A DNA stretch of 32,103 nucleotides from Streptosporangiales bacterium (GTDB lineage: Bacteria; Actinomycetota; Actinomycetes; Streptosporangiales; Streptosporangiaceae): NCBI GenBank assembly GCA_009380095.1, contig WHSL01000047.1, forward strand, positions 1-32,103, in the 5' to 3' direction. Below the pieces are notes generated by a model. The model was given only the letters and a program-made list of their open reading frames with translations, did no database searches and was not told the DNA's origin. The translations under genes were made by a program, and so were the position numbers. This document shows, piece by piece, positions 20,525 to 32,103 of the stretch (the stretch's first letter is position 1; each line of letters starts with the position of its first letter).

Positions 20525-21952
20525 ATGCGCCCGCTGCTGGATCCCGCCCTCCCACCGCTACGACGCGACGCGTCCACGGTGCAGTTCGGCGCGCACCCGA
20601 GTCGGGCGATCGGGGTGACGGGGCTGCCGCCGGGCTCCTGGCCGTTCCTCGCCCTGCTCGACGGCACCCGCACGCTCGGCGCCCTCCTCGAGCAGGCGAC
20701 GAGCCTGGGGCTGGCGGCCGGCTCCGTGCACCGGCTGCTCGCCCTCCTCGCCGCCCGCGGCCTCCTCCTCGACACCGACCACGCCCCACCCCCGCAACCA
20801 CCTCAAGCCCTCACCACCCCCTCACTCCACACCCCATCCGCCACCTCACAGGAGGGGCCCACCGAGCTCCACCAGGCCGACCCCTCAGGGCCACACCGCG
20901 GTACGCCGGGGTCAGGGCGCCCCTTGACCTTGGGGTCGCGGTCCTCGGGGTCGCGGTCCTCGGGGTCGCGGTCCTCGGGGTCGCGGTCCTCGGGGTCGCC
21001 GCCCTCCGAGGCGCGGCCCTCGGACGCGCGGACCTCGGGCACGCGGCCCTCCGAGGCGCCGACCTCGGAGGCGCGGTCCTCCGAGGCGCGGTCCTCCGAG
21101 GCGCGGTCCTCCGAGGCGCGGTCTTTGCCGCGGGGTTCGTCTGTGGAGGGGCGGCGGGGGGTGGCGGCGGAGCCGCGGGAGGATCCGGCGCAGGTGGAGC
21201 GGTTGTGGCCGGAGGCGCTGGCGGCGGGGCTCACCATCGGGTCAGGCGACGCGGGTGCCCGGGCGCTGGCCCGGCGGCGTGCCGCGATGGTGCATGTGTT
21301 CGGCGGCTGCCGGGTGGGGGCGACGTTGGCGTTGCTGCTCGCCGCGGCGGGTGTGGGCGGGGTGACCGTGCGGGACACCCAGGTGGCGGGGCCCGCCGAC
21401 GTGGTGCCCGGCGGGCTCGGCTGGGACGCGGTGGGCCGCACCCGCTCCCTCGCCGTGCACCAGGCGATACGCCGGATCAACCCGGCCGTGCGCGCGGACG
21501 CCCGGGCCCTCCCCGACATCGCCGTGCTCGTCACCGACTTCCCGCCCGACCCGCTGCAGGCGGCGCCCCTGATGGATCAGGGCGTGCCACACCTGGCGGT
21601 GACCGTGCGCGAGGCGGTCGGCACGATCGGCCCGCTCGTCGTCCCCGGCGCAACCGCCTGTCTGGGCTGTCTGGAACGGCTCCGGCGCGATCGCGATCCA
21701 GGCTGGCCGGCGATCCGCGCGCAGCTCGCGGAGCGACGGGTGCCGCCCGGCGACGTCACGCTCACCGCGGCGGTCGCGGCCCACGCGGCGGCACAAGTGC
21801 TCACTTACATTCAAGGAGGTGAAACGGTTGTGAGAAACGGCACAGTTGAGATCGTCCTGCCTGTTTGGGCCTGGCGGCGCCGGTCCTGGTCGCCCCACCC
21901 GCGATGTCGCTGTGGAAGAAACGATCCCACATACCTGAGAATGGCGGCGTGA
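20525..21952 (+). CDS. ThiF/E1-like protein with RiPP leader-binding-type N-domain
   Basis: This is a 475-residue protein in three parts. Residues 1-85 (LRRDASTVQFGAHPSRAI, LLDGTRTLGALLEQA) resemble the N-terminal domain of E1-like proteins that partner YcaO cyclodehydratases in azoline RiPP pathways. Residues about 90-215 are a low-complexity Ser/Arg/Glu linker built from 15-bp repeats. Residues 250-475 are a ThiF-like Rossmann domain (VFGGCRVGATLALLL) in which the usual adenylation residues of the E1 active site are not recognisable. Cysteines C379, C382, C461 and C463 form a CxxC...CxC zinc site. No YcaO or precursor peptide is nearby. Its neighbours (ABC1 kinase, whiB7, DUF2342) match the Rv3195-Rv3197A order, so it corresponds to Rv3196. 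It ends in a GTGA overlap with the kinase gene. Function unknown. Confidence 0.82.
   Translation: MRPLLDPALPPLRRDASTVQFGAHPSRAIGVTGLPPGSWPFLALLDGTRTLGALLEQATSLGLAAGSVHRLLALLAARGLLLDTDHAPPPQPPQALTTPSLHTPSATSQEGPTELHQADPSGPHRGTPGSGRPLTLGSRSSGSRSSGSRSSGSRSSGSPPSEARPSDARTSGTRPSEAPTSEARSSEARSSEARSSEARSLPRGSSVEGRRGVAAEPREDPAQVERLWPEALAAGLTIGSGDAGARALARRRAAMVHVFGGCRVGATLALLLAAAGVGGVTVRDTQVAGPADVVPGGLGWDAVGRTRSLAVHQAIRRINPAVRADARALPDIAVLVTDFPPDPLQAAPLMDQGVPHLAVTVREAVGTIGPLVVPGATACLGCLERLRRDRDPGWPAIRAQLAERRVPPGDVTLTAAVAAHAAAQVLTYIQGGETVVRNGTVEIVLPVWAWRRRSWSPHPRCRCGRNDPTYLRMAA
20931..21121 (+). repeat. 15-bp tandem repeats inside the ThiF-like gene
   Basis: There are two related repeat families in frame. 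About four copies of GGGGTCGCGGTCCTC (20932-20995) encode a GSRSS repeat. After a diverged middle, about four copies of CGAGGCGCGGTCCTC (21066-21121) encode an SSEAR repeat. The period is a multiple of three, so copy number can change without a frameshift. The repeats lie in the linker between the N-terminal and ThiF domains. Confidence 0.9.
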
Positions 21953-23319: not shown

Positions 23320-23397
23320 CAGAGGCCCCGACCGGCCGCCCAACCACGCCGTCCCAAGCCCGGCCGTCAAGTCCCGGCCCTCCAATCCCGGCCGCTC

Positions 23398-23490
23398 AAC
23401 CCCAGCCCGCTCAACCCCAGCCCGCTCAACCCCGGCCGCCCGGCCCGGCCGTCCAAGCCCGGCCCCCCGGCCCGGCCGTCCAAGCCCGGC
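23398..23490. repeat. Short C-rich direct repeats
   Basis: A 14-bp unit (CTCAACCCCAGCCCG-like) is present about two and a half times in 23398-23435. A 23-bp unit beginning CCGGCCCGGCCGTCCAAG occurs twice, at 23440-23462 and 23468-23490. They lie just downstream of the ABC1 kinase gene and are not coding. Confidence 0.75.
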
Positions 23491-23606
23491 GGCCCAGGCC
23501 CGGCCGCCTAAGTCCGGCCGTCGTCACCCGATCGGCACAGCGGCGAGCATGGCCGCGGGCTCATTCGGACTGCGGCTCGGTAGGGCCGGGGGTGCGAATT
23601 TGTGAA

Positions 23607-23637: not shown

Positions 23638-23734
23638 ACTTCCCCCTTCACCGCGGGGCCGCACCAGCCGGCGGCGGCCCCGGCCCCCCTGGCGTCGCGC
23701 GATGACGGGGCGGGAACGCCGTGCGGCTTCCCGA

Positions 23735-23858
23735 CGCTCCCTTCCGACGCTTCCCTCCGACGCGCCCTTGCGGACATGCCCTTGCCGACATGCCCTTGCC
23801 GACGTGCTCTTGCCGACGCACCCTTGCCGACGTGCCCTTGCCGACGTGCCCTTCCCGG
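23735..23858. repeat. Tandem array of nine 13-14-bp units
   Basis: Units begin at about 23735, 23748, 23761, 23775, 23789, 23803, 23817, 23831 and 23845. The consensus is CRTGCCCTTGCCGA; the first two units are 13 bp and more diverged, and the last is degenerate. The period is not a multiple of three, so the array is not a protein repeat. It lies in the gap between the ABC1 kinase gene and the small gene downstream of whiB7. Confidence 0.85.
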
Positions 23859-30651: not shown

Positions 30652-30912
30652 ATGGCGACGCCCACGACGGCGCAGATCACGATGTACACCACACCGTGGT
30701 GCGGCTTCTGCAGGCGCCTGAAGAGCCAGCTCAGCAGGGAGGGCATCGAGATCGCCGAGGTCGACATCGAGCAGGACCCGAGCGCGGCCGACTACGTGAT
30801 GGAGGTCAACGGCGGCAACCAGACCGTCCCGACCCTGCTGTTCGCCGATGGCTCGGCGATGACCAATCCTTCCGTCGCACAGATCAAGGAAAAGCTGGCC
30901 GAGCTGGGTTGA
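30652..30912 (+). CDS. mrx1: Mycoredoxin (glutaredoxin-fold, Mrx1)
   Basis: This is an 86-residue glutaredoxin-like protein. The active site is C17-G-F-C20, preceded by TTPW, and the cis-proline loop is QTVPTLLFADGS. The sequence and the position near uvrD2 and whiB7 match mycoredoxin-1 (Rv3198A), which reduces protein-mycothiol mixed disulfides with electrons from mycothiol. Its length is normal. GGAGGA precedes the ATG at 30652 with good spacing; an open frame further upstream is promoter sequence. The SigR/SigH-like promoter at 30580-30606 fits a thiol-stress role. An ANTAR gene follows 24 bp downstream. Confidence 0.94.
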   Translation: MATPTTAQITMYTTPWCGFCRRLKSQLSREGIEIAEVDIEQDPSAADYVMEVNGGNQTVPTLLFADGSAMTNPSVAQIKEKLAELG

Positions 30913-30936
30913 AACCCGGCCGCCCAACCCACTGCC

Positions 30937-31392
30937 ATGCCTGACCCCGTGGCCGACGACGAGCTGACGATCCGCCGCACACCCGCCGGATGGCGCGTGT
31001 GCGGCGAGGACGTACCCGACCTTGCCAGCGCGATGGTGCTGGCCGACCTGCTGGCGGCCGAGCTGCCGCCGGCCGAGCGCCCGCCCCGCGCGCCGGACGA
31101 CGCCGGCGAGCTCGACCGGCTGCGCGTCACCGTGCAGCAGCTGGAGCACGCGCTGACCGCGCGGGTGATCGTCGAGCAGGCCATCGGCATCCTCGCCGAA
31201 CGGCAGCGCAGCACGCCGCGCCGGGCCTTCGAACGGCTCCGCCAGGCCGCCCGCTCCCGCGGCCGCCGGGTCGCCGACCTCGCGGGGGACGTCGTCGCCA
31301 GTGCGACCAACCCGCTCCTCCCGCTCCCCTCCGAGCTGAGCCGCCCGCAGGTGGAGAGCCCCGAGCCCGCCACGCCCTCCGAGCCCGGCTGA
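30937..31392 (+). CDS. ANTAR-domain protein
   Basis: This is a 151-residue protein. The C-terminal part (about residues 55-118; LEHALTARVIVEQAIGILAERQRSTPRRAFERLRQAARSR is the core) is an ANTAR domain, a three-helix RNA-binding module that prevents transcription termination by binding paired hairpins. The conserved VIVEQAIGIL and the AFERLRQAAR helices are intact. The N-terminal 50 residues do not contain a receiver, PAS or GAF domain; they read as a short beta-rich stretch (TIRRTPAGWRVCGEDVPDL). The tail is Pro/Glu/Ser-rich. The ATG at 30937 has no Shine-Dalgarno, so translation may depend on mrx1 upstream, 24 bp away. Its RNA targets and its signal are unknown. Its stop codon abuts the remnant of the channel gene on the other strand. 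Confidence 0.82.
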   Translation: MPDPVADDELTIRRTPAGWRVCGEDVPDLASAMVLADLLAAELPPAERPPRAPDDAGELDRLRVTVQQLEHALTARVIVEQAIGILAERQRSTPRRAFERLRQAARSRGRRVADLAGDVVASATNPLLPLPSELSRPQVESPEPATPSEPG

Positions 31393-31574
31393 GCAGCGTC
31401 ACCAGGGTCCGGGAGTCGGCCCGCTGCACGTCGAGGTGGTCCGAGCCGAGCACGATGACGTAGTCGCACGCCCCGGGGTCGGCCTTCTCGAGCACCACGC
31501 GGTCGGCGGTGTCACCGCCGGTGAACGTGACGGCGAGGTTGTCCGCCCGCATGGCGAGCCGTTCCTTCTCCGCG

Positions 31575-31619
31575 TCGGGCGGCTCCGGGTCGGGCGGCTC
31601 CGGGTCGGGCGGCTCCGGG
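31575..31619 (-). repeat. Three 15-bp tandem copies inside the channel remnant
   Basis: Exactly three copies of TCGGGCGGCTCCGGG (plus-strand reading) encode a DPEPP repeat in the remnant. It looks like a recent in-place expansion. Confidence 0.9.
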
Positions 31620-32078
31620 TCGGCGATCACGTTCAGCGACGAGCCGGGCTGGACGTACGCGGCCGGCTGATCGGTGATCATCGGCGCGCGGGAGTTCCAG
31701 CCGAGCATCAGGATCCGTTCCGGCGCGGCCGGGCAGGGAGCCGATGCACGACGAGCCGCGCGGCGATGTCGCCGGAGTCCACGATGTGGGCGTCCGGGCC
31801 GCCGGCGATCAGGGCGGGGGCCAGGTTCGCCGGCGCGCCGACGGTGGCGACGATGTGGCACCGGCCGCGCCGCCCGGGCGGTTGTTGACCGCGAGCAGCG
31901 TCTTGATCACATGCGCGTCCGGCTCGTCCTCCTCCGGGGTGAGCACGATGATGGAGCGCGCGGCGTCGGGGTTGACGATCTCCAGATCGGCGGGGTCGAT
32001 CGGGTCGCCGGTGCGGCAGACCACCCGGGTACGGCGCGTGTCGCCGACCCGCTCCCGGATCTCGTCCTCCATCTCGAC

Positions 32079-32102
32079 CTTGTCCTTGTCCTTGTCCTTG
32101 TC
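32079..32102 (-). repeat. Hexanucleotide repeat at the window edge
   Basis: Four copies of CTTGTC (plus strand) reach the end of the window; on the minus strand they read as Asp-Lys pairs directly before KVEMEDE. The family normally has one such pair here, so this is an expansion, and more copies may lie beyond the edge. Confidence 0.85.
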
Positions 32103-32103
32103 C

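Follow-up and report, generated by a model that had tools for sequence, protein, structure and literature searches.

The window analyzed in the present study, which is a stretch of 32,103 nucleotides from a Streptosporangiales bacterium, represents the entire contig C282 of a draft genome of 413 contigs and 6.09 Mb. On its minus strand, from the stop codon of an ANTAR-domain gene (31390-31392) to the end of the window (32103), parts of a CASTOR/POLLUX-type channel gene are present as three pieces in three frames (Table 1). The gene upstream of the ANTAR gene is presumably a mycoredoxin, as judged from its CGFC motif. This mycoredoxin-like and ANTAR pair (30653-31392) adjoins uvrD2 in 5 of the 20 stretches from relatives that were searched using tblastn.

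Table 1. Features of the ANTAR/nudC junction and of the intact channel gene located elsewhere in the genome. Coordinates refer to the window unless another contig is given.
Feature	Coordinates	Strand	Remarks
Mycoredoxin/glutaredoxin-like gene (presumed)	30653-30912	+	Upstream of ANTAR; open frame; CGFC motif
ANTAR-domain gene, intact	30937-31392	+	Pfam ANTAR, 56 bits; convergent with nudC in relatives
Third piece of the remnant	31388-31750	-	Model positions 388-494; 81.7 bits; translation; intact-paralogue protein search; holds the 15-bp repeat
15-bp tandem repeat	31568-31623	.	3.7 copies; TRF score 105
Second piece of the remnant	31744-31878	-	Model positions 246-290; 30.1 bits; translation; different frame
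First piece of the remnant	31869-32103, on into C342:27-52	-	Model positions 165-247; 125.6 bits across the join
6-bp tandem repeat at the contig end	32078-32103	.	At least 4.3 copies; TRF score 52
nudC (NAD diphosphatase), intact	C342:179-1099	-	NCBIfam, 253 bits
Intact CASTOR-type paralogue	C250:1-1296 and C222:12574-13278		Spans two contigs, the ends of which share 141 identical bp

Regarding the identity of the three pieces, their scores were obtained with a profile of 636 positions, which was built here from 47 family members and left out the remnant, L107, L119, L117, L110, and L106. None of 100 Markov shuffles of the remnant stretch scored above -2.3, and the pieces are collinear with the family profile, which indicates CASTOR/POLLUX descent and bears out the three conserved channel segments in three frames that a preliminary description of this DNA had claimed. 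Since the second piece stops at model position 290 and the third starts at 388, 97 model positions (291-387) are absent between them, in agreement with the gap of about a hundred residues given in that description. The remnant also lacks 164 model positions at the front and 142 at the back, and the homology of the third piece stops at the ANTAR stop codon, where the end of the gene had been described as cut.

In the intact paralogue, the region of the first piece matches TrkA_N and a Slo-like RCK domain in Pfam, and, judging from its location, the third piece probably corresponds to the beginning of the second RCK domain. According to the report on CASTOR (PMC6697748), two tandem RCK domains make up the gating ring in the soluble part of this channel, and the layout given there suggests that the 164 absent front positions would correspond to the membrane part. 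PF06241 (Castor_Poll_mid) covers residues 267-367 of the paralogue and lies almost wholly within the middle gap (approximately residues 277 to 382 of the paralogue), which explains why Pfam (E 0.01) assigned no family to the three pieces. A search of the first and third pieces against NCBIfam also returned no family, and a search of the genome for PF06241 found C250 as the only match and nothing at the remnant. Regarding the features of a functional channel, helices and a pore ahead of the RCK region would be missing because the front positions are unmatched, the PF06241 domain is absent, and three frames are present in place of a single open reading frame. The remnant makes no channel because it has lost the pore front, the mid domain, and the last part of the gating ring. 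On the other hand, the translations of the three pieces contain no stop codons, and the GC contents at codon positions 1, 2, and 3 are 0.752, 0.470, and 0.966, respectively (pooled, 234 codons); the intact paralogue has 0.676, 0.452, and 0.944, and the overall GC content of the window is 0.714. The break looks recent because the pieces are free of stop codons and GC at the third codon position is still 96.6%.

The contig ends at position 32103 within the 6-bp array, the unit count of which is a lower bound because the contig end interrupts it. Contig C342 starts with the same 26 bases that end the window, a 20-base stretch of the array occurred nowhere else in the assembly as an exact match, and the match of the first piece runs across the join as far as position 52 of C342 (joined coordinate 32129). 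The next 126 bases of C342 are without a match and are followed by the stop codon of nudC. The join is supported by the array being unique to both contig ends, by the protein match that crosses it, and by the neighboring positions of ANTAR and nudC in relatives. The space between the two stop codons amounts to 863 bp (711 in the window and 152 in C342). A comparison of window positions 31331-31440 with C342 positions 27-260 for signs of insertion gave a longest common word of 10 bp, and the borders of the remnant showed neither a mobile element nor a long duplicated end. Contigs C222 and C250 also have their exact 141-bp end in common, which suggests that the draft was made by a k-mer assembler.

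The genome keeps a full-length CASTOR/POLLUX-type gene of 621 aa on these two contigs, so that the search for an intact second copy proposed in the preliminary description was successful. Its product matched PF06241 at 97.6 bits, and the closest PDB entry was CASTOR (E 3.3e-72). Among the aligned proteins, the nearest to this paralogue was L123 from a linear Streptomyces plasmid (66% identity), which was its sister in the tree. Related genes matched the first piece of the remnant at E 1e-6 in 157 of 297 genomes of the order and at E 1e-12 in 13 of 396 genomes in a phylum-wide sample, the present genome being included in both counts. In one relative, the channel gene (L092; G083:C1, 324-500 and 496-2190) has its last approximately 60 residues in another frame; this is perhaps another gene starting to break or a sequence error.

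Regarding the descent of the remnant, its identity to the paralogue of the same genome was 45.9% over 229 columns. The highest identity over 229 columns was 52.0% (L121 and L069), with 53.3% in an earlier alignment (L078), and identity to L106 was 52.1% over only 165 columns. The identity alignment left out L077 and L046, which repeat other rows; a further set of rows also left out L107, which equals L108, and the partial L106, and the tree with the AU test left out 11 of 51 rows. That the remnant is a recent copy of this paralogue was ruled out by the identity of 45.9% together with an AU test, which rejected a tree joining the two (p = 0.000113). No starred set of the tree contains the remnant. 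For the first piece, the highest identity (76%) was to genes from a different class of the phylum; a gene on a Deinococcus plasmid had 69%, and the best value in the order sample was 68%. The tree gives the remnant no definite position, so that a transfer from a distant lineage is a possible origin. None of 600 stretches of viral contigs matching a pattern encodes a relative.

The neighborhood of the ANTAR gene was surveyed at 39 loci, which represent 35 distinct genomes. nudC lies convergent beside ANTAR at 26 of these loci (22 distinct genomes), and no channel match was found between the two genes in any of the 22. The two stop codons are 4-330 bp apart in 20 of these genomes; in the other two (G021 and G061), ANTAR and nudC overlap according to an automatic stop-codon walk. 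At the remaining 13 loci, the stretch examined contained neither nudC nor a channel match, and, thus, the ANTAR/nudC arrangement is not universal. The remnant's own pieces, with the repeat residues left out, also found nothing significant at the 39 loci (best E 0.22). A second survey by tblastn covered 20 stretches from relatives, each 3.7-8.5 kb long, and 8 of these 20 genomes were also part of the 39-locus survey. uvrD2, mycoredoxin, ANTAR, and nudC occurred together in 4 stretches and ANTAR with nudC in 7; 17 stretches contained nudC, and none contained a channel gene. Conversely, nudC, ANTAR, mycoredoxin, and uvrD2 were absent from all 7 stretches around channel genes with flanks of approximately 3 kb and from all 40 channel loci, 29 of which had flanks of only 0.3-1 kb and some of which repeat the same gene.

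The remnant is, thus, placed where the examined relatives have none, and we consider it probable that it is a pseudogene fragment of a channel gene that arrived at the ANTAR/nudC junction in this lineage and then broke. The principal alternative is that an ancestral channel gene stood between ANTAR and nudC, was cleanly deleted in most relatives, and is still being lost here. The presence of a related gene somewhere in more than half of the order genomes and the codon signature of a gene that the remnant retains are in line with this history, but neither the 22 junctions nor the 20 stretches gave a channel match, and channel genes elsewhere are without these neighbors, albeit in mostly short flanks. 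A loss in place is therefore regarded as unlikely, and arrival at the junction is inferred instead of loss by all relatives. Considering that the 41 relatives sampled include no genome of the same genus, an older residence of the channel gene at the junction may have preceded the present state. The recent loss of a channel that many relatives keep, as stated in the preliminary description, accordingly stands in part: the family is kept by many genomes of the order at other locations, but the reading of this locus as the loss of a kept channel is unsupported because the examined relatives have no channel here and the genome retains a complete member.

A fault of sequencing or assembly, in which a whole gene would be disguised by base errors and a collapsed stretch near the contig end of a draft, is more doubtful still. 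The contig does break inside a repeat, the array length of which is only a minimum, but the absence of the front, middle, and end positions would all have to be explained, and intact genes close the stretch on both sides on two different contigs. Moreover, protein searches of the assembly for the absent parts found only the intact paralogue and a weak match on C74 (E 7.6e-6, 32%, within a frame of 421 aa), and other genes in the window are open across hundreds of codons.

That a piece is still expressed, for example a short RCK1 frame serving as a regulatory fragment that acts on the intact channel, would agree with the lack of stop codons and with an 87-residue open frame that starts from an ATG on the minus strand (31809-32072), but the piece represents no more than a portion of the first RCK region and was assigned no family by Pfam or NCBIfam, which makes such a role highly improbable.

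Regarding the two expanded short repeats that had been reported, both are present, and their significance differs. The chance level was defined by shuffling the window 30 times under an order-1 Markov model. No array in these shuffles reached a score of 105, so that the 15-bp array exceeds chance, whereas arrays scoring 52 or more occurred at 0.47 per shuffled window and, thus, the 6-bp array does not by itself exceed chance. When the other 52 aligned proteins were searched for the peptides encoded by the repeats, as three DK or KD units or as two PDPEP or PEPPD units, none contained them. A 15/45-bp array of approximately 12 units (20937-21123; score 241) lies within a frame of 475 aa, which we take to be ThiF/cyclodehydratase-like, and reads as SRSSG and SEARS repeats; growth of repeats is, thus, not peculiar to the remnant. 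Two 14-bp (28-bp) tandem arrays (23332-23522 and 23727-23857) are also located just past the end (23319) of a presumably ABC1/AarF-kinase-like gene, and are probably non-coding because 14 is not a multiple of three. Slipped-strand events, to which the decay had previously been ascribed, are plausible for the 15-bp repeat; however, slippage leaves the missing ends unexplained. It would be a bold speculation, to which we assign hardly any probability, that the ANTAR/nudC junction is a settling place for foreign or stray genes in this family and that in-frame 6- and 15-bp arrays in the gating-ring part toggled the channel gene by slippage before its death.

Under the preferred reading, i.e., arrival at the junction followed by breakage, a divergent channel gene of the CASTOR/POLLUX type, either whole or in large part, would have entered the short convergent space between ANTAR and nudC, and this gene would not have been a recent copy of the intact paralogue. 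We infer that it was longer on arrival than at present. The remnant would then have lost its front, middle, and back, with at least two shifts of frame, and would have gained tandem repeat units. The break appears to have proceeded more by deletion than by point changes, and the remnant is presumably untranslated. The description of a gene in decay with an internal deletion and frameshifts is upheld because both ends and the middle are absent and the frames shift. Taken together, an ordinary gene remnant, namely, a dead fragment, is the most likely state of this locus. As a caution, an apparent loss in progress at a contig edge became a remnant once relatives and the adjoining contig were compared. 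The present results also show that one genome can carry traces of two distant members of the channel family, the distribution of which is patchy.

Among known systems, the closest are channels of the CASTOR/POLLUX/DMI1 type with an RCK gating ring, such as CASTOR of Lotus (PDB 6o6j; PF06241), and their bacterial relatives, parts of which are matched in order by the pieces of the remnant; in contrast to these channels, the remnant is out of frame and is without the membrane front, the mid domain PF06241, and the final 142 positions of the model. The remnant differs in no notable manner, its tandem repeats being a minor feature, from bacterial pseudogenes left by insertion and deletion, and resembles them in being cut at both ends and in having an internal deletion, frame shifts, collinear homology, and intact family members elsewhere.
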